Part shown: one piece after another, positions 54,051 through 63,897 of the stretch
How positions within the stretch are numbered: position 1 is the stretch's first letter
Layout of the letters: every line of letters begins with the position of its first letter
Origin: Bacteroidales bacterium
Lineage (GTDB): Bacteria > Bacteroidota > Bacteroidia > Bacteroidales > FEN-979
Length of the DNA: 64,000 bases
Direction of reading: 5' to 3'
Assembly: GCA_030681475.1 (NCBI GenBank)
Contig: JAUXWT010000037.1
Span: 1 to 64,000 of the forward strand
Position numbers and translations under genes: made by a program
Notes under the pieces: generated by a model
What the model was told of the DNA's origin: nothing
Database searches by the model: none
Seen by the model: only the letters and a program-made list of their open reading frames with translations

Positions 54051-55448
54051 ATGGGTATATTTCAAATGAATGATACGATCTGTGCGCTGTCAACCGCACC
54101 CGGGGTGGGCGCCATCGCGGTGATCAGGCTTTCGGGACCTGCTTCTTTTGCAACGATCGGGCAGCTTTTCAAGTCATCGGAAAAGAACCTAGAAATAGCT
54201 GCGATAAAATCGCATACCATCCACCACGGGGTGATCGGGGATGGAATGTCAATTCTTGATGAGGTACTGATCAGTTGTTTCAGGGCGCCTCACTCCTACA
54301 CCGGGGAGGATGTGATTGAAATTTCATGTCACGGATCGGACTATATCCAGAAAAAAATTCTGGAGTTGCTTATTTCCGCAGGATTAAGACTGGCAAAACC
54401 GGGAGAATTCACTTTCCGGGCCTTTATGAACAAGAAATTCGACCTGTCACAAGCGGAGGCTGTTGCCGACCTTATCGCATCCCATTCAGGCACGTCACAT
54501 GAACTGGCGTTGAAGCAGATGCGTGGCGGATTTTCAAAAAAGATTGGCGCCCTCAGGGAATCACTGATTGAATTTACATCACTGATCGAGCTCGAACTTG
54601 ACTTCAGCGAGGAGCACATGATATTTGCCGACAGGGCCGACCTCCGGACATTGCTGGACCATATTGAGACCGAACTTACCCAACTCATCAAGTCGTTCAG
54701 CCTGGGGAATGTGATAAAAAACGGCATCCCGGTAGCTATTATCGGGAAACCAAATGTTGGGAAATCGACTCTGTTGAATGCCATTCTCAATGAAGAAAAG
54801 GCCATCGTCTCCGAACTTCCCGGCACCACACGCGATGCCATTGAGGATACCATTGTGATCGGCGGATACAGTTTCCGGTTTATCGATACCGCCGGACTGC
54901 GCGCTTCGGAGGAGGTCATTGAAAATATTGGCATCGGCAGGACCTGGGAAAAGATCAGCGAAGCAAGTATCATATTATATGTGTTCGATGTCACTGAACA
55001 ATCATTTGCAGATGTAAAGGAAGCGATATCCGAACTTAAAAAGCCCGGCGAAGTGCCGCCTTTAAACCTCGTACTGGTGGGAAACAAGACCGACCTGTTG
55101 GACCAACTGCCCAGGGGCTTCAAAGAGTTCGTTGAATATGAGACCATTTTCGTGTCTGGCAAACGCAAGGAGAATTTACATCTCCTCGTCGAGCACCTGG
55201 TGGATGTCGTGGGCAAAGCAAAAACCACCGATAAAACAATCGTTTCCAACTCCCGGCATTACGAGGCCCTGCAGCAGGCGCATAACGCCATCCTCGCTGT
55301 CCGCACCGGACTCAGTGAAAGCATTTCTCCCGACCTGCTTACCGTAGATATCCATAAGGCATTATACCATCTTGGCGAGATTACCGGCGAAATTACGACG
55401 GATGAGATTTTGGGGGCGATTTTTGGAAGGTTTTGCGTGGGAAAGTAA
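54051..55448 (+). CDS. mnmE: tRNA uridine-5-carboxymethylaminomethyl modification GTPase
   Basis: MnmE, with MnmG, modifies wobble uridine 34 of several tRNAs. The 465 residues have the N-terminal tetrahydrofolate-binding domain ([22 protein letters not shown]), a helical domain, an inserted G domain ([47 protein letters not shown]) and the C-terminal redox cysteine motif CVGK. The family usually starts at MNDTICAL, so the ATG at 54066 is an alternative. A putative integrated element begins directly at its 3' end. Confidence 0.96.
55431..55448 (+). other. Possible attachment site at the 3' end of mnmE
   Basis: The last 18 bases of mnmE, TTTTGCGTGGGAAAGTAA, encode FCVGK and the stop. The equivalent 3' end of trmE/mnmE is the attB used by the SGI1 family of integrative elements in Proteobacteria. 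Here a tyrosine recombinase gene follows within 850 bases. No second copy was seen before the right edge, so attR would lie outside the window. Confidence 0.4.
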
Positions 55449-55489
55449 CCGGCACTTTATAAGCAATCACCAAAACGGAACAGTCAATG

Positions 55490-55516
55490 AAAAGCCCAGT
55501 AAATACGGGCTTTTTT
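55490..55516 (+). terminator. Rho-independent terminator after mnmE
   Basis: AAAAGCCC (55490-55497) pairs with GGGCTTTT (55507-55514) around a 9-base loop; Ts continue to 55516. It separates mnmE from the element genes. Confidence 0.8.
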
Positions 55517-55565
55517 AATGTTCATAACTATTATTTATTATTTGCTTAATACTGGTTATTCAGTC

Positions 55566-55573
55566 TATCTTTG
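55566..55573 (+). promoter_or_regulatory. -7 element of the element's first gene
   Basis: TATCTTTG, an exact TAnnTTTG match, overlapping the first GTACCTC operator-like copy; the leader would be about 110 bases. Confidence 0.6.
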
Positions 55574-55621
55574 TACCTCATTTGTACCTCGCTTCAGATT
55601 GAGGTACATTTTTGTACCTCA
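55572..55621 (+). promoter_or_regulatory. Operator-like cluster of four TGTACCTC copies
   Basis: TGTACCTCA (55572-55580), TGTACCTCG (55583-55591), the inverted TGAGGTACA (55600-55608) and TGTACCTCA (55613-55621). The last two form a perfect 9-base inverted repeat with a 4-T spacer. The first copy overlaps the -7 element, which suits repression by an element-encoded regulator. Confidence 0.6.
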
Positions 55622-55642
55622 ACTCGATTTTAAAAATATTTC

Positions 55643-55692
55643 TGCAACATATTGCAACACATTGAAACAAACCGCAACATTAAGCAACAAAA
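55643..55692 (+). repeat. Five 10-base GCAACA repeats up to the start codon
   Basis: Units TGCAACATAT, TGCAACACAT, TGAAACAAAC, CGCAACATTA, AGCAACAAAA follow each other without gaps; the ATG of the next gene begins at the following base. The exact 10-base spacing puts each GCAACA on the same face of the helix, as expected of a protein-binding array such as integrase arm sites or an operator. Confidence 0.7.
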
Positions 55693-56280
55693 ATGAGCTC
55701 AAACATCAAGGTACAAAGAATTTGCCAGCACTGTGGTACTGAGTTTACAGCTAAGACAACAGTTACCCAGTATTGTGGAGATAGCTGTGCAAAGCAAGCA
55801 TACAAATCAAGGGTAAGAACCCAAAAAGTTGAGCTAAGTAATATGGAGACTCAACTTATCAGAACAAAACCCATCGAGGAACTGCAAGCAAAAGAGTATT
55901 TAACCATTACTGAAACCTGTAAACTCTTATCTGTCAGTCGCTGGACAATCTGGCGAGCGATAAAAAATGAGGATTTGCCGGCCGGAAAAATTGGAAGGAG
56001 AACCCTGATCAAACATTCTGATCTGAATCGACTCTTTAAACAGAATATAACCCCAGACGACGAAGATATACAAAAGGAACAGAGGGATGAAGTAAAAGAA
56101 TGGGCTGACGCTGGTCAATTTGAGATTGCAGAATGTTATAATCTTAAGGAAGTACAGGACCTATATAGTATTTCCGAATCGGCATTGCAAGACCTGATTA
56201 AAAGGAATAACATACCGAAAATAAAATATGGTTGGTTCGCTTATGTTCCGAAGATTGTGATTGATAAATTATTGAAATAG
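55693..56280 (+). CDS. Zinc-ribbon and double helix-turn-helix protein
   Basis: The 195-residue protein starts with a zinc ribbon (C-x2-C-G in [10 protein letters not shown], then [11 protein letters not shown]). It then has a MerR/excisionase-type helix-turn-helix at about 70-115 ([20 protein letters not shown], ending [15 protein letters not shown]) and a second, more distant one at about 145-190 ([20 protein letters not shown]). Such proteins precede integrases in Bacteroidota mobile elements and may act as regulator or directionality factor. The integrase gene starts 8 bases after it. Binding to the repeats upstream is inference. Confidence 0.82.
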
Positions 56281-56288
56281 AATAAATA

Positions 56289-57527
56289 ATGGCCATAAAA
56301 GTAAAGTTAAGATCAAAGACAATCTCGGGGAACAGGCACAGCCTGTACCTGGATTTTTATCCTCCTATCCCCCACCCTGAAACGGATAAACCAACCCGGC
56401 GGGAGTTCTTGAATTTTTTTCTCTTCAATGAAAATGTAATCGAAGAGCAACAGTACCTTGATAAAAATGGTAACGTTAAAAGACGATTTATCAAGGTATT
56501 GAATAAGAAGGGTGAACCCCGAAAAGTTAAGTTAACCCCAATTGACAAACAACACAACTGTGAAACCCTTCAGCTTGCCGAACAAATCAGGCAAAAAAGA
56601 GATAATCAACTTAATAAGCCCGAAATTTATACAGGATATGAGAGGGAACAATTAAAGATCAAAGAAAGGGAAAATACCTCTTTTTTGGAATATTTTAATC
56701 AGTTGAAGGAAAAACGGAAGGCTTCAAACCATGACAACTGGGTTTCGGCCTACCACTACCTTGAGGATTTTACCGGCGGAAAATTAAAGTTCGTCGATAT
56801 TGATGAAAAATTCTGCAATGATTTCAAGGAACACTTGTGCAGTGCACCCAGTTACCGGAGCGATAAAACCAAACTGTCTCAAAATTCAGCCTTCTCCTAT
56901 TTCAACAAATTCAAAGCTACTTTAAAACAGGCATATAAGGACGGGTATTTGCGTACTGATTTAAACAGTCGAATCGGTCGTATTAAGGAAGAAGAGACTC
57001 ACAGAAATTTCTTGACGCTTGAAGAATTGAATAACCTTGTACATAAGGATTGCCTAAGCCCTGTGTTAAAAAATGCTGCCTTATTTTCCGCTCTAACCGG
57101 GGTGAGGTTTGGTGATATTGCCAAACTTACCTGGAGCGAAGTGGAATTTATTAAAGGCAATGGGTATTTTATTCGATTCACCCAGCAAAAGACCCATGGT
57201 GTTGAGATGATGCCAATTTCCGACCAGGCATATAGTCTGATGGGTGAACGAAGGGACCCAAATCAAAGGGTATTTGACGGACTTACCTATTCTGCATATA
57301 CCAATAAACATTTAGCTCAATGGATTGGTTCAGCCGGAATCACCAAAAATATCACCTTTCATTGTTTCAGACATACATTCGCCACTTTGCAGCTAAGCAA
57401 TGACACAGACTTTTACACGCTCTCAAAAATGCTAGGGCACCGGGATCCAAGGACAACAGCGATATATGGCAAGGTCATTGACCGGACAAAACGCATTGCT
57501 GCTGATAAAATATTCTTAAAATTTTAA
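56289..57527 (+). CDS. Tyrosine-type site-specific integrase
   Basis: This 412-residue integrase of the Bacteroidota type has an N-terminal arm-binding domain (about 1-110; KVKLRSKTISGNRHSLYLDF), a SAM-like core-binding domain (130-230; FLEYFNQLKEKRK) and a catalytic domain. The active site is complete: R273 (TGVRFGD), H358 and R361 (HCFRHTFA), H384 (GHRDPRTT) and nucleophile Y393 (AIYGK). It should insert and, with a directionality factor, excise the element. It is co-transcribed with the zinc-ribbon protein. Confidence 0.93.
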   Translation: MAIKVKLRSKTISGNRHSLYLDFYPPIPHPETDKPTRREFLNFFLFNENVIEEQQYLDKNGNVKRRFIKVLNKKGEPRKVKLTPIDKQHNCETLQLAEQIRQKRDNQLNKPEIYTGYEREQLKIKERENTSFLEYFNQLKEKRKASNHDNWVSAYHYLEDFTGGKLKFVDIDEKFCNDFKEHLCSAPSYRSDKTKLSQNSAFSYFNKFKATLKQAYKDGYLRTDLNSRIGRIKEEETHRNFLTLEELNNLVHKDCLSPVLKNAALFSALTGVRFGDIAKLTWSEVEFIKGNGYFIRFTQQKTHGVEMMPISDQAYSLMGERRDPNQRVFDGLTYSAYTNKHLAQWIGSAGITKNITFHCFRHTFATLQLSNDTDFYTLSKMLGHRDPRTTAIYGKVIDRTKRIAADKIFLKF

Positions 57528-58519: not shown

Positions 58520-58858
58520 ATGGAACCTACATTTGACAAATTACCTCAAGCCGTAAACCAGATATACGATAAACTGGAAAACATTGAACGGCTGTTACTT
58601 TCAATAAGTAACGACTCCCAACCAGAACCCGATTCTTTATTGACCATTAAACAGGCCGCCGAAATATTACACCTTTCGGTTCCTACGATCTATGGTTTGG
58701 TTCAACGCTCTGAAGTACCTGTATGTAAGCGCGGGAAGCGCCTATACTTTTCTAAACAGGAATTAACCACGTGGATAATGGCTGGCCGTAAAAAAACAGC
58801 CGCGGAAATTAATGAAGAAGCAGAAACATATATTAGAAATGCAAACAGACGGAGGTAA
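58520..58858 (+). CDS. AlpA/excisionase-type helix-turn-helix protein
   Basis: The 112-residue protein has a helical N-terminus (about 1-35) and a MerR-like excisionase domain: LLTIKQAAEILHLSVPTIYG, then CKRGKRLYFSKQELTTWI. Its basic tail ends RNANRRR. Proteins of this kind assist integrase in excision or regulate element genes. Its 3' end contains the GGAGG that serves the following micro-ORF. Confidence 0.87.
   Translation: MEPTFDKLPQAVNQIYDKLENIERLLLSISNDSQPEPDSLLTIKQAAEILHLSVPTIYGLVQRSEVPVCKRGKRLYFSKQELTTWIMAGRKKTAAEINEEAETYIRNANRRR
58851..58855 (+). promoter_or_regulatory. Strong Shine-Dalgarno GGAGG of the micro-ORF
   Basis: GGAGG lies six bases before the ATG at 58862. Such a site is rare in this window, where most genes lack one, and it decides that the small frame is probably translated. 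Confidence 0.6.
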
Positions 58859-58861
58859 CCC

Positions 58862-58978
58862 ATGTGTCTAATTGAAATTAACAAAGCAATTTTTCGTCTG
58901 ATAGACCAGATCCTTGGGCTTATTGAACTGCCAGCTAAAATTCTATTTTCATTAACTTTCCTCAAAACCCTGTCATGA
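58862..58978 (+). CDS. 38-residue micro-ORF coupled to the replication gene
   Basis: The ATG at 58862 has a GGAGG six bases upstream and the frame runs to a TGA at 58976-58978. The TGA overlaps the ATG of the primase gene (ATGA), while the primase itself has no visible ribosome site. The peptide starts MCLIEINKAIFRLIDQILGL, continues with a hydrophobic stretch and ends FLKTLS, so it may form one or two amphipathic helices. It may be a real small protein or only a device to couple translation. No homologue is known to me. Confidence 0.5.
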   Translation: MCLIEINKAIFRLIDQILGLIELPAKILFSLTFLKTLS

Positions 58979-61900
58979 TATCGAACGCAGAAGAAATCAA
59001 AGGTGCTGTCCAGATTGCCGATATCATTGGTGATTTTATCACCCTTAAAAAGAAGGGTGTTAATTACACTGCCTGTTGTCCGTTCCATCATGAAAAAACA
59101 CCCAGCTTCATGGTGAACCCTACTCGCGGTACCTTCAAATGCTTTGGATGTGGAAAGTCAGGCGACGCCATCGAGTTCCTTCGGGAGCATGAGGCAATGA
59201 GTTTTACAGAAGCGCTTACTTATATCGCTGGAAAATATGGCATCGGCATCATCCTTAATAACAATGATTCAGAATATTCCGATGCCCAAAAACGGCGCGA
59301 TGGAATCTTTGCCGTTCTGAACTGGGCCCGGGAACATTTCTCTGAAAACATTGAGAAAAACAAGGCAGCCACGGGATACCTTCAGGAAAGGAAACTCAAT
59401 AATGCCATTGACCTGTTTAAGATTGGCTATGCTGATTCCGGTAATAACCTGCTTAAAGCAGCCAGGAAAGCCGGGTATTCTAATGATATATTATTGTCCG
59501 CCGGTTTGATCAGAAAGAATGATCAAGGCCAGTATTATGATTACTTCCAAAAACGGATCATGTTCCCGTTTTACGATCGTTCAGGACGGGTGATAGGCTT
59601 TACCGGAAGGATTATTACAAATGAAAAGGATAAACAAAAGTACCTGAACAGCCCGGATACTGAAGTATTCAAAAAGAGCAAGGCTCTTTATGGACTATTC
59701 CAGTCTAAAAAGGAGATCATGAAGGAGAACGATTGCCTGCTGGTGGAAGGTCAAACTGACCTGATCAGCTGGCACCTGGCCGGGATCAGGAACGTAGTGG
59801 CCGGTTCTGGAACTGCACTGAGCGAAGATCAGGTTAAGATGATACAATCGTTCACCAATTGCATCACAATTGTGTATGATGGCGACCCGGCCGGAATCAG
59901 GGCCAGCATCGCTAACCTTAATAAACCACTTCAAATGGGGCTTGATGTTTACATTGTTGTCTTGCCGGATGGTGAGGATCCCGATTCTTTTGTATTAAAG
60001 CATGGCGCTGAAACCCTAAAGGCTTTCATTGAAGATAACCGAAAGGATATCGTTTCGTTCCGCATCGATATGATTAAGGAGCAGGTGGATCAGGACCCAC
60101 TGCAAAAAGCAAAGCTGGTCAAAGAACTTGTCTCCCAGGTTTCACTCATTGAGGATGAGCAAACACGGGAATATCTGACCAGCGACATTGCGAAAAAACT
60201 GGATGTGAGCCTCTCTGACATCGAGCGGCATGTAAAAAAGCAACTTCCAAAAATCAAACACCAGGAAAAAGGATTTTTCGGACTTGATGCCGCCGAGGAG
60301 ATGATTAAGGACAAAGGCTTTGCTGTTTTGCTACCAGACCCGGGGGGAGTTGTTTCATGTCATGCCGAAGGGAATGAAAATACAATCAGTCTGCCGGCTG
60401 GTCCGCTGATGAAAGATGATATTTCCCGGCTGGCAAAATTGACAAAGAATGTTAAAATTCAAGGCCTTAAACTTATCGTTGATGAAAATGATGTTGAATT
60501 TCCGCTGGCCGAGGCTGGACGTCTCCTCACCGAAAATGGGATGCAGGTTGAAGTACTTGAAGAGAATGCCTTTGATTCTTTGAGTGAGGATCATGATTCT
60601 GTTGTGTATATTGATTTCCTTGATTTTTATGTGCATGGTTTAGTCATTCCGTTGAAACGACAACCCGACACAAAACGTTCCAAGAAGTTTGTGGAGATGG
60701 TAGCCGAGTTCCTGTCCAAACTTGATAACACCATTATCCATATCAAGACCAATTGGATTGCCAAACAATTCGACCTCACTCAGTCCGCATTTTCAAAAAT
60801 ATTGCGCCCTTATGTTGAGAAGTGCAAGAACCTGGCCGTTCAGAGGCAGGAACAAGTTGTTATTGATGATCAACAATTTGTCTTCGATATAGGGCACCTT
60901 CCATCATATGTTAACCAGGCTTTTTTTCAAAGGTATGGTTTCTTCGCAGCACAAAATAAAAGCGGGAACAAGATATTTTATGTGTTCCGCACACTCGAAA
61001 ATACCCTGGTGAAGGTTGGGAATTTCTTCATGGAACCTTTGTTTCAGGTGTATGATCCTGATCCTGTAAAGAATAAAAGGGTTGTAAAGCTTATTCATTC
61101 AGAACTTAATAAAGAGGAGTATGTTGAGTTCAAGAGTACTGATATGGTTGAATTGCAACAGTTCAAGAAATTTCTTTGGAATAACGGAGGCTATATTTTT
61201 ACAAATGGCAAGCCTTTTCATCATGAAAAAATACTTGAAAGCATTGCACTGCAATTCCCCAAGTGCTGGGAATTTTCAACATTCGGATGGCAACCTGAGG
61301 GTTTCTTTGCATTTGCAAATGGCATTATTGCTGGTAATTCTTTTACTGAGGTTGATGAACTCGGATTGGTGACATTTAAAAACGTAACCTACTACTCTCC
61401 TGCATTTAGTACTATATATAAGGATCAGCGGTCTGACAATGACAGATACGAGTATGATCGGTTTTTGGTTTACAAGCCTGAACAACGAACCTCATGGGCA
61501 AAGTGGTCTACACTGATGAACAATGTCTACAAATATAATGGTAACGGCATGTGGGCACTTCTTTTCTCTATTTTATCCGCTCACAGAAGTGTTATTTTTC
61601 CGATCGAACGTTTTTTTACATCATTGTTTTTCATAGGTCCTACCGAATCCGGCAAGTCAAGAATCGCCGAAAGTATCCGGGCTCCATTCATGTATGGTGC
61701 TCCACTGTTTAACCTTAATTCGGGCACCGATGCCGCGTTCTTCACGAGTCTCGAACGATTTCGTGACATCCCGATAATATATGATGAATATAACGATTAC
61801 CAGATCTCTGATGTGAAGTTCCAGGGATTAAAGGCAGCCGTGTATGACAATGAAGGGAAGCAGAAACGCAAGGATGCAACCAGCAAGGATATTGATGTAT

Positions 61901-62814
61901 CGAAAATTAATGGCAGTCCGATCCTGCTTGGCCAGGAAGGTCCTGAACGGGATGATGGGGCATTGGGTAACCGTGTAGTTCAGAAACACGTTCCGAAAAA
62001 GGATGACTGGACCGAAGAGGAGGTTGCAATGTATATAGATTTAAAGGACCGTCAGCGTGACGGATTAAGCAATATCGCCATGGAAATTATCAACTTAAGG
62101 CCTATTGTGAAAAAGTATTTTGCTACGTACATGCGTGAATCTCAAAAGCAGGTAAAGATAGATATTGAGAAAGAAGGTGGCGCTTATCAAACTCGCCTCA
62201 TCAATACCGTTAGCATTTTTATTGCATTGGTTAAAATGATGGAAGTTCATGTGAAGGATCTTCCGCTTCCTTTCACTTTTGATACATTTTATGAAGATGC
62301 TAAACGACAAATCCTTCGCCAAAGCGAAGAATTGAGCACCAGCAACCGGTTATCCGTGTTTTTCAATACCATCAGCATGTTGTATGCACAGGGACAAATC
62401 ATAAGCGGACGGGAGTTCGATATTTCCACGGAATCTCAGGTGACCATTACCGTGTCAAAAACGGAAAGATCCGAAGTTCCAATGGATGGGGGATCAGCAC
62501 CGGTGTTATTCCTTATATTGAACGACACGGCTCACATCTGCCAGAAAATGCACAATTCTGAAAGTTTAAAGATTAACGCACTGCGGATGTACCTCAAAGA
62601 CCACCCCGCCTATATTGGCCAGGTTAACAGTCACCGGTTTATATACCAGGTGGAATCATGGGAACCAGATCCTGTAACTGGTATTAACCGTAAGATCATC
62701 AACAAAGCAGATCGGGTTACAAGTTGCATTGCGCTTAAGTACAAATTGATCGAGGCTATGGGAATCGATCTTCAGCGGTTTAAAACCCCTGAGCCGGATG
62801 AACCGCCGTTCTGA
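58975..62814 (+). CDS. Primase-helicase replication protein (CHC2, Toprim, ATPase)
   Basis: The 1279-residue protein begins with a DnaG-type CHC2 zinc finger, C35-x2-H38-x17-C56-x2-C59. A primase catalytic region with a Toprim domain follows (LLVEGQTDLIS near 256 and VYDGDPAGIRA near 302). After a middle region (about 400-850) comes a P-loop ATPase with Walker A GPTESGKS (near 888) and Walker B IIYDEYN (near 935), probably a helicase. Joining primase and helicase in one chain lets an element start its own replication. The iteron cluster begins 35 bases after the stop. It may be translated by coupling to the micro-ORF. Confidence 0.88.
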   Translation: MISNAEEIKGAVQIADIIGDFITLKKKGVNYTACCPFHHEKTPSFMVNPTRGTFKCFGCGKSGDAIEFLREHEAMSFTEALTYIAGKYGIGIILNNNDSEYSDAQKRRDGIFAVLNWAREHFSENIEKNKAATGYLQERKLNNAIDLFKIGYADSGNNLLKAARKAGYSNDILLSAGLIRKNDQGQYYDYFQKRIMFPFYDRSGRVIGFTGRIITNEKDKQKYLNSPDTEVFKKSKALYGLFQSKKEIMKENDCLLVEGQTDLISWHLAGIRNVVAGSGTALSEDQVKMIQSFTNCITIVYDGDPAGIRASIANLNKPLQMGLDVYIVVLPDGEDPDSFVLKHGAETLKAFIEDNRKDIVSFRIDMIKEQVDQDPLQKAKLVKELVSQVSLIEDEQTREYLTSDIAKKLDVSLSDIERHVKKQLPKIKHQEKGFFGLDAAEEMIKDKGFAVLLPDPGGVVSCHAEGNENTISLPAGPLMKDDISRLAKLTKNVKIQGLKLIVDENDVEFPLAEAGRLLTENGMQVEVLEENAFDSLSEDHDSVVYIDFLDFYVHGLVIPLKRQPDTKRSKKFVEMVAEFLSKLDNTIIHIKTNWIAKQFDLTQSAFSKILRPYVEKCKNLAVQRQEQVVIDDQQFVFDIGHLPSYVNQAFFQRYGFFAAQNKSGNKIFYVFRTLENTLVKVGNFFMEPLFQVYDPDPVKNKRVVKLIHSELNKEEYVEFKSTDMVELQQFKKFLWNNGGYIFTNGKPFHHEKILESIALQFPKCWEFSTFGWQPEGFFAFANGIIAGNSFTEVDELGLVTFKNVTYYSPAFSTIYKDQRSDNDRYEYDRFLVYKPEQRTSWAKWSTLMNNVYKYNGNGMWALLFSILSAHRSVIFPIERFFTSLFFIGPTESGKSRIAESIRAPFMYGAPLFNLNSGTDAAFFTSLERFRDIPIIYDEYNDYQISDVKFQGLKAAVYDNEGKQKRKDATSKDIDVSKINGSPILLGQEGPERDDGALGNRVVQKHVPKKDDWTEEEVAMYIDLKDRQRDGLSNIAMEIINLRPIVKKYFATYMRESQKQVKIDIEKEGGAYQTRLINTVSIFIALVKMMEVHVKDLPLPFTFDTFYEDAKRQILRQSEELSTSNRLSVFFNTISMLYAQGQIISGREFDISTESQVTITVSKTERSEVPMDGGSAPVLFLILNDTAHICQKMHNSESLKINALRMYLKDHPAYIGQVNSHRFIYQVESWEPDPVTGINRKIINKADRVTSCIALKYKLIEAMGIDLQRFKTPEPDEPPF

Positions 62815-63225
62815 AAGTTCACACGGAAAATCCTGCCGGGAAAGTTGCGCCCTACAGCCCTACAAATACAATATGAAACTATTATTATATTATTTATCAG
62901 TATGTTATGTTTTATAATTCTTATAGGGCTGTTTATTTTTTGTAGGGATTTGAAGGGATTATGGTGAAGCCACATTTTTTTGGATCCGTAGGGCTGGAAA
63001 AACCGCCCTACGGAATTTTGGGAAGATCCTGCAAATATTTGATATTCATTATCAGGGTTTTATTGCTTTTCAAATGTTTTTGTAGGGCTGTAGGGCTGTA
63101 GGGATTAAAAAATGATGCTTCCCTATACTGAATAATTATTTGAGCATTAATCGAATTAGCCATGGGGATTATGATCAAGCTATTAATTTACAACTATTCA
63201 ATTTTAATCATAAATATAACGACGG
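62815..63225 (+). other. Gene-free region with iterons, probable replication origin of the element
   Basis: These 411 bases contain ten copies of TGTAGGGC or close variants. Minus strand: 62849-62856, 62857-62864, 63005-63012. Plus strand: 62922-62929, 62941-62948, 62951-62958, 62987-62994, 63081-63088, 63089-63096, 63097-63104. An almost pure A/T stretch lies at 62865-62921. A perfect 9-base hairpin CCGTAGGGC/GCCCTACGG is at 62986-62994 and 63005-63013. Iterons around AT-rich DNA behind a replication gene fit a Rep-dependent origin, as in SaPI islands. Confidence 0.7.
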
Positions 63226-63897
63226 ATGAATACGTATAAACTTCAAGAAAATACGCTCTATGAGCGTCTTCGCCTCCATTATTTGGAAGAGTATGAAATT
63301 ACCGCAGCGGATGCCAAGATATTGGAACGATGGGAAGCAGCCCATGCTCTTGTACTTGCAGAAAAAGAAACAGATCACAACGTAGTGAAAATCCTGATGA
63401 AGCGATTTAGTATTTCAAATGTATGTGCATATAATGATATCAGGAATTCCAAACAATTTTTTGGAGATGTACGTTCTTCAAATAAACAAGGCTTACGCTA
63501 TATCGTAACACAATGGTCGATTGAATTATTTAGAATGGCAAGAATCGCACATGATCTGAATGCGATGGCAGGGGCTTTAACCGTAATCACTAAGGCAAAC
63601 AACCTTGATAAAGATGATCGGGATATTCCTGATTTCTCAAAGATTCAGCCACCAGTGCAACTCCTGCAAGTCAATTTTACTTTCATAAACACTCCTTTCT
63701 TCAAACTCATTGATGAGGCAGCCCAAAAAGCCATTCTCTCACAATATGATGATTTCATGCGACAGGTGAAACTATCTCCAATGGCTGAATATACGGATGT
63801 ATGGAAGATTGATGACTCAGCCCGGCCGGACAAAAAGAGACGTGGACCTGCTAAAAGCAAAGCCTGCAAAGACTGCCCATATTTTAAACCATCATAA
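63226..63897 (+). CDS. Putative terminase small subunit-like protein
   Basis: The 223-residue protein has a helical N-terminus, a helix-turn-helix near 55-80 (VVKILMKRFSISNVCAYNDI), the phrase FFGDVRSSNKQGLRYIVTQW, and a basic tail ending KACKDCPYFKPS with a CxxC. The shape and the HTH resemble small terminase subunits and genes next to terminases in Bacteroidota phages, as far as I remember; no search confirms it. If right, the element marks its DNA for packaging. Position behind the origin is compatible. Confidence 0.5.
   Translation: MNTYKLQENTLYERLRLHYLEEYEITAADAKILERWEAAHALVLAEKETDHNVVKILMKRFSISNVCAYNDIRNSKQFFGDVRSSNKQGLRYIVTQWSIELFRMARIAHDLNAMAGALTVITKANNLDKDDRDIPDFSKIQPPVQLLQVNFTFINTPFFKLIDEAAQKAILSQYDDFMRQVKLSPMAEYTDVWKIDDSARPDKKRRGPAKSKACKDCPYFKPS

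Follow-up and report, generated by a model that had tools for sequence, protein, structure and literature searches.

Here, we describe a candidate replication origin in the window, i.e. the whole 64,000-nt stretch of DNA that was analyzed (C51:1-64000, from a Bacteroidales genome of 4.24 Mb in 111 contigs). Near the end of the window lies a gene for a 1279-aa primase-helicase (58975..62814, + strand; characterized with Pfam, PHROG, AlphaFold, and Foldseek), followed by an array of ten 8-bp repeat units (iterons) at 62849..63104 that starts 34 bp 3′ of the stop codon of this gene. Both form part of an element that starts 3′ of mnmE. From the comparison of related loci, we consider the array to be the likely replication origin of this integrated, satellite-like element and the preceding gene to encode its matched initiator, a reading to which we assign a probability of roughly 87%.

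The array consists of two outer clusters and several inner units. The left cluster contains two reverse tandem units (62849-62856 and 62857-62864, − strand), both exact copies of TGTAGGGC, where most other aligned loci have three. It is followed by an A/T-rich core (62865..62921), the putative melting site, and then by forward units at 62922..62929 (TATAGGGC, one mismatch) and within 62941..62958 (TGTAGGGA at 62941-62948, one mismatch, and TGAAGGGA at 62951-62958, two mismatches). Next comes an inverted pair with one mismatch in each unit (62987-62994 on the + strand, 63005-63012 on the − strand), contained in a stem (62985-62994/63005-63014; 62985..63014 overall) with a 10-nt loop. The right cluster has three forward tandem units, two of them exact (63081-63088 and 63089-63096) and the last with one mismatch (63097-63104). 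Checked singly, the ten units thus comprise four exact copies, five with one mismatch, and one with two. The original prediction had already placed ten 8-base units in both orientations within 256 bases, with tandem clusters at both ends (62849-62864 and 63081-63104), and each was found where it had been placed. Its description of the 57 bases behind the left cluster as nearly pure A/T was too strong, although they are A/T-rich (49/57), and the stem, described as perfect and 9 bases long, is indeed perfect but has 10 bp.

Exact TGTAGGGC occurs five times in the window, compared with a shuffle mean of 0.85. When one mismatch is allowed there is no enrichment over the whole window (26 matches against a shuffle mean of 29.3); nine of these 26 fall inside the 256-bp array. 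The array also has the top 7-mer count (six) of all 1274 windows of 330 bp, and the 600-nt array region outscores 200 of 200 dinucleotide shuffles. No similar DNA was found in the phage collection. Besides the iterons, an A/T-rich 22-nt repeat (77% identity, core TTATCAG) flanks the array center at 62887-62908 and 63042-63063; both sites are partly conserved across loci with different units, and the repeat is possibly the site of a second protein.

In the whole genome, exact TGTAGGGC is present 33 times: 15 copies lie in three arrays, on contigs C51 (the window, four), C15 (six), and C72 (five), and 18 are scattered. Tandem pairs occur in these three arrays only, so that the expected confinement of the motif holds for the tandem units. 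The arrays of C15 and C72 also precede a homolog (74% identity) of the 223-aa open reading frame (ORF) that follows the array in the window. C15 has an intact primase (87% identity), and in C72 (locus L011, 1-160) an intact array stands behind a primase remnant consisting of its last 15 nt, with unrelated sequence before it. Three more full-length primases are encoded on C100, C111, and C95 (77-79%). No GTAGGG cluster was found behind these three genes; instead, they are followed by an array of the same layout in different letters. This genome holds six arrays in three dialects, as we will call the different unit sequences.

The same combination of fixed layout and changing unit is found across loci. 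In 19 aligned loci (L106, L196, and L205, with degraded or displaced arrays, were left out of this alignment and of the trees), a common layout of ~265 bp is kept: reverse tandem units (three, or two in the window) 34-52 bp behind the stop codon, the A/T-rich core, single forward units, the inverted pair, and three forward tandem units. The unit is TGTAGGGC in seven of these loci, CGTTGGAA in four, CGTTGTCA mixed with CGTTGGCA in five, and CGTTGGGA, GGTTGGGC, or TGTTGGAT with its variants in one each; TTGGAT is likewise among the unit sequences. Almost all sites within a locus carry the unit of that locus, of a form nGTnG with a near-constant G-T and second G. At the variable unit positions 4, 6, 7, and 8 (11 site columns), identity among the sites of one locus is 0.82, while between loci it is 0.52 for the same site and 0.50 for different sites. 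When loci were permuted within sites, none of 2000 permutations reached 0.82 (mean 0.51); this permutation ignores relatedness, which the trees described below do not. The sequence of the A/T-rich core is partly conserved across dialects. The original prediction had asked whether homologous primases carry matched downstream arrays, and they do, with the unit switching as a set within a retained layout, which is stronger evidence than plain conservation would have been.

Among six window proteins, the primase alone is widespread in 18 related loci (17/18), compared with 0 for the integrase, 0 and 1 for the two helix-turn-helix (HTH) proteins, 1 for a 296-aa ORF, and 9 for the 223-aa ORF. Tandem TGTAGGGCTGTAGGGM occurs in 4 of 43 genomes of the same bacterial family with 17 matches, 13 directly behind an intact primase and the other four in C72 behind the remnant. 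When contigs were scanned using the primase alignment, 80 loci matched, mostly over the N-terminal 400-470 residues at 38-44%; these were taken as host DnaG.

The N-terminal part of the initiator (aa 6-413) is a DnaG-type primase with CHC2 zinc finger, DNAG_N, and TOPRIM domains in Pfam and PHROG searches, whereas aa 640-1135 are predicted to form a helicase of the type found in Cch of SCCmec (staphylococcal cassette chromosome mec) and Rep of the Staphylococcus aureus pathogenicity island (SaPI) SaPIbov1, with a putative C-terminal recognition region behind it. The AlphaFold model, built for aa 640-1279 from 47 sequences, has a mean predicted local distance difference test score (pLDDT) of 89.3 and a predicted template modeling score (pTM) of 0.74. 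Its top four Foldseek matches in the PDB are Cch (5dgk; E 3.4e-14, the best match, and 8.5e-14) and SaPIbov1 Rep (8tch; 3.0e-13 and 5.1e-13), followed by the next at 2e-6; these two proteins stand seven orders of magnitude above superfamily 3 (SF3)-type helicases. The template modeling score by target is 0.60-0.70 for these matches and the root-mean-square deviation 7-10, indicating that the domains are placed differently, and identity is 9-13% among the top matches.

To locate the part of the protein that tracks the dialect, dialect and protein distances of 18 primases were compared in 40-aa windows by a partial Mantel scan that controlled for the remainder of the protein; C72, with its 15-nt remnant, was left out of the protein analyses. 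Co-variation peaks at aa 1146-1185 (62410-62529; partial r 0.690, where the permuted 99% point is 0.362 and none of 500 permutations reaches the peak). All 12 alignment columns that separate proteins of loci with GGG-containing units (the GGG dialect) from the others lie in aa 1154-1255. Together with the trees and a linkage control, the scan delimits a putative iteron-recognition region at aa 1136-1270 (62380..62784, + strand). In the tree of this region, the eight GGG-dialect proteins form one clade (support 100/99; one change), while the GGG dialect needs four changes on the trees of aa 1-640 and of aa 641-1135, and the approximately unbiased (AU) test rejects one clade for both of these segments (p 6e-50 and 1e-6). 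The GGG/other grouping was taken from the iterons but after the protein alignment had been viewed, so these p-values are not blind. The switch can be seen in a single pair: L019 and L095 are 94-97% identical in segments up to aa 1140 and 80% identical beyond, and their units are GGTTGGGC and TGTTGGAT. In the model, the co-varying stretch maps to strands 509-541 and the following helix-helix-long-hairpin end, in our view a winged-helix-like domain. The scan gave no positive signal near aa 600, where an HTH-like stretch had at first been considered as the unit reader; this candidate was discarded.

Some single residues partly follow the dialect as well. Among proteins of at least 35% identity, Asn at aa 1248 goes with T at unit position 4 (15/15), and A at this position goes with Val, Ile, or Ser at aa 1248 (9/9); this set includes four loci of 47% identity with units off the nGTnG form, and L198 and L204 gave no motif. 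Lys at aa 1255 is found with all eight GGG arrays and with no other array of the same set, GGG being confined to the first set of loci. Porphyromonas gingivalis phages form a separate clade (primase identity ~35%; 18 Porphyromonas records), of which seven were analyzed; the other P. gingivalis records and, separately, loci L275-L284 were left out. All seven have the array layout, 1.2-2.3 kb behind the primase. At the residue corresponding to aa 1248, the five phages with TGTTGGAC have Asn and the two with TGTAGGAC have Ile or Val; some units are mixed in L308.

Because the units co-vary with the C-terminus of the primase-helicase, we infer that this protein itself binds the array; units that switch as a set together with one end of one protein would behave as a matched lock and key. 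Our best reading is that the array is an origin of the SaPI/PICI type (PICI, phage-inducible chromosomal island) read by the C-terminal domain of the primase-helicase, without the element being a proven PICI. The element would excise, after which the C-terminal domain would bind the 8-bp units. A helicase hexamer would probably be seated on each of the two opposed clusters flanking the A/T-rich core, with the two hexamers facing one another, an arrangement also proposed for SaPI Rep. The helicases would then melt the core, and the DnaG-type primase of the same polypeptide would lay the first primers.

This scheme can be compared with known systems. In PICIs, the initiator gene is followed by two iteron sets around A/T-rich DNA (PMC6092414). 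The same arrangement is found directly 3′ of the window initiator, and the analogy to SaPI origins drawn in the original prediction is upheld. The C-terminal domain of SaPI Rep recognizes the downstream origin, and two hexamers are probably loaded (PMC7581432); the co-variation suggests that the C-terminal part of the window protein reads its iterons likewise. Primase and Rep helicase are also both present, here fused, and the predicted helicase half is closest in fold to SaPIbov1 Rep and Cch. Whole PICIs have an integrase with a specific attachment site, a gene for the terminase small subunit (TerS) without those for the large subunit and capsid, and induction and packaging by a helper phage; of these traits, the window element shows an integrase and a start 3′ of mnmE, along with a gene that resembles that of TerS by position only. 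Unlike the SaPIbov1 and SaPI5 primases, which are archaeo-eukaryotic primases (PMC7581432), the window primase is DnaG-type, and Cch lacks a primase domain altogether (PMC7581432). Further differences from SaPIs and PICIs are the Bacteroidales-related host, the single units and inverted pair between the clusters, and the presence of the module in full-size phages, which weakens the claim, made in PMC6092414, that such an origin organization is unique to PICIs.

Phage P4 carries primase, helicase, and origin binding on one polypeptide, the alpha protein, with iterons in ori and crr and an SF3-type helicase. The window initiator resembles it in uniting primase, helicase, and putative origin binding next to iterons, but its modeled fold is nearest to Cch and SaPIbov1 Rep, with D5, E1, and adeno-associated virus (AAV) Rep-type helicases far behind, and does not look to be of the SF3 type. 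The fusion of helicase and primase in alpha is described in PMC7145576. RepA of the Vibrio cholerae phage-inducible chromosomal island-like element (PLE) supports replication only with its cognate origin, and its iterons diversify (PMC8263062); the initiator-iteron pairs described here would be modular in a similar way. However, PLE RepA is a RepA_N initiator without primase or helicase that has three ~30-bp iterons (PMC8263062), compared with a primase-helicase and ten 8-bp units in the window. The cognate-only replication of PLEs offers a possible reason for dialects, namely that they keep an element from being cross-fired or attacked by others sharing its cell.

The consensus of the DnaA box is TTATNCACA. 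A host DnaA-dependent origin was rejected: with at most one mismatch, this sequence has no match in the 19 arrays, compared with a mean of 8.7 in composition shuffles. Among the papers listed in literature searches, none describes this origin in its title or abstract.

Several observations weigh against our interpretation. A simple 7-mer test was applied to the 600 nt behind the primase, a pass being a score above all but two of 200 dinucleotide shuffles. It was passed by 22 of the 34 closer loci (those that reach 35% identity or belong to the first set) and by 27 of the 46 more remote ones. Ten of the 12 closer misses have a tandem array that is displaced or mixed, among them L095 with a drifted one (the other nine are described below), while L106 and L205, which are mutually alike, have only a degraded array. 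The Mantel scan has a second, lower peak at aa 756-835 (0.51), and for the full dialect the gain is small, with six changes on the C-terminal tree and seven on each of the other two. Six T-dialect proteins lack Asn at aa 1248 (Val in L098-L101, Ser in L207, Gln in L199), and the remote L215 contradicts the rule with Asn and A. DUF927, the Pfam domain of Cch and SaPIbov1 Rep (PMC7581432), was detected in 7 of 47 relatives, with E values of up to 0.1, but not in the window protein, and no relevant match came from a profile search against PDB sequences. Lastly, a correlation with dialect is also seen for the A/T core (r 0.52) and the spacers (r 0.43), so that some exchange of whole blocks is likely too.

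The same correlations, which extend to the C-terminus (r 0.68 and 0.67), favor an improbable alternative in which the array is an origin bound by another protein. Since the gene end adjoins the array, exchange of one block holding both could mimic recognition. However, the stretch between the stop codon and the first unit (43 columns) correlates with the protein backbone (r 0.63) rather than with the dialect (r 0.04). In addition, the C-terminus still follows the dialect once backbone and spacers are removed (partial r 0.486; 0 of 2000 permutations). From these comparisons, the association is more than mere linkage. Furthermore, the P. gingivalis arrays, despite their distance from the gene, still show a dialect difference with aa 1248, and no other window protein is common to the loci. 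A neighboring HTH protein was rejected as array binder, as HTH proteins are not shared by the loci of one dialect. Iterons often serve in copy number control or incompatibility as well as in replication, and the P4 initiator binds such repeats, so the array might be a control region like P4 crr with the origin elsewhere. We consider this very improbable, as the window element has no second array (the best 7-mer count outside is five, from an unrelated motif at 55401-55880) and the array, like PICI origins (PMC6092414), has inverted clusters with A/T-rich DNA between them.

A packaging site (pac or cos) read by the TerS-like product of the next ORF would explain why the array directly precedes an ORF of the 223-aa type in the window, C15, C72, and L094. 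This reading was rejected on the position of the array in relatives and retains hardly any probability: in L096-L099 and L101, which carry capsid genes, the array is still found behind the primase, at a distance of several kb from the ORF, and six loci that were inspected have no repeat cluster up to 0.8 kb from the ORF (best 7-mer counts 2-4). We give just as little weight to repeats acting as operators, or to the stem acting as a transcription terminator or structured RNA. The perfect 10-bp stem would fit the latter, but there is no excess of terminators or promoters at the stem and no Rfam match, and the stem is imperfect in several dialects, as expected if it is simply two units facing each other.

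Going beyond the single origin, we tentatively propose, at slightly below even odds, a family-wide origin recognition code. Here, the C-terminal domain would read nGTnGnnn at about ten fixed places and a few residues would set the dialect, with aa 1248 acting on unit position 4 and aa 1154-1176 together with aa 1255 on the GGG part. Matched domain-array sets would have spread between full phages, tail-less capsid-carrying elements, and TerS-only satellites. If so, dialects could keep the origins of co-resident elements apart, or allow a helper of the same dialect to fire a satellite. What is new is a DnaG-type primase fused to a predicted Rep-type helicase that is common to phages and satellites of Bacteroidota, together with a layout that stays fixed, dialects that switch, and a candidate specificity region that has been mapped. 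This provides a predicted origin and matched initiator for a large group of these phages and satellites, P. gingivalis phages included. The natural dialect series makes the origin specificity of Rep-type helicases directly testable, and more replicons could easily be searched for by the fixed layout with its changing unit.

Some loci deviate from the regular arrangement. The arrays of L197, L201, and L255 are mixed, with a GTTCCCGC triple as outer units and TGGGTCACGC as inner units, and have perhaps been caught between two dialects. The GTTCCCGC triple lies at +460 in L209 and at +2767 in L202. Other arrays are displaced, to +1613 in L207, +2681 in L198, beyond the primase match in L204, and ~2 kb away in the P. 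gingivalis phage L111. In the latter (BK068107, 9690-10000) and at matching places in 12 more P. gingivalis phage records, two or three small hypothetical proteins have been annotated across the array; these probably do not represent genes.

The element starts behind mnmE (54051-55448; NCBIfam TIGR00450), and its genes are all on the + strand, in the order HTH protein, tyrosine integrase, 296-aa ORF, second HTH protein, primase-helicase, array, and 223-aa ORF. The first is an HTH_17 protein (55693..56280; Pfam/PHROG searches) adjoining the integrase (56289..57527; Pfam Phage_integrase, 8e-18) and is a possible excisionase or regulator. A second, 112-aa HTH_17 protein (58520..58858), the one present in 1 of 18 related loci, is encoded directly upstream of the primase. 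Between mnmE and the HTH and integrase genes, 55560-55630 contains the repeats TTTGTACCTC and GAGGTACA with the 7-mer AGGTACA. This 7-mer occurs five times per 330 bp, which is the second-highest 7-mer cluster of the window (55401-55880) and unrelated to the iterons; the repeats are perhaps integrase arm sites or operators.

The 223-aa ORF (63226..63897, + strand) is TerS-like by position only. Its homologs lie directly 5′ of the terminase large subunit (TerL) in 15 of 16 viral contigs and 20 of 29 genome loci (18 viral loci matched, one of them a duplicate; the weak matches L302 and L303 were left out). It has no family match in Pfam/PHROG searches and no confident fold match: its model (pLDDT 71) gives no PDB match below E 0.6, two uncharacterized viral proteins below 0.001, and matches named TerS no better than E 0.18. 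The element is cut off by the end of contig C51 at 65402, so that its right end lies outside the assembled sequence, and no second attachment site copy was found. A candidate right attachment site in contig C3, a three-mismatch match beside an unrelated gene, was taken as chance. No TerL match was found in the ~2 kb after the homolog of the 223-aa ORF in C15 and C72, and relatives have capsid-type genes; from this gene content, the window element looks like a TerS-only satellite with an unassembled right end.

In L096-L098, prohead protease and capsid-like genes lie between the array and TerS/TerL. Two of these (L097 4771-18345 and L098 4020-17606) are ~14-kb elements beside tRNA-Arg with primase, array, prohead protease, a capsid-like gene, a TerS-like gene, and TerL; no portal or tail gene was recognized among the proteins scanned, and they are possibly capsid-forming satellites in Bacteroidota. 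By its gene order, L094 (G006:C40, 1-6677) is an intermediate between the two element types, with primase, array, TerS-like gene, and TerL in a row and no capsid genes between them. RadC-family genes are found 3′ of the packaging end in both element types (L010 12966-13562, L011 2629-3225, L098 18595-19422, and L108 4809-5549), and the RadC reading frames of C15 and C72 are both shortened, at the identical place.
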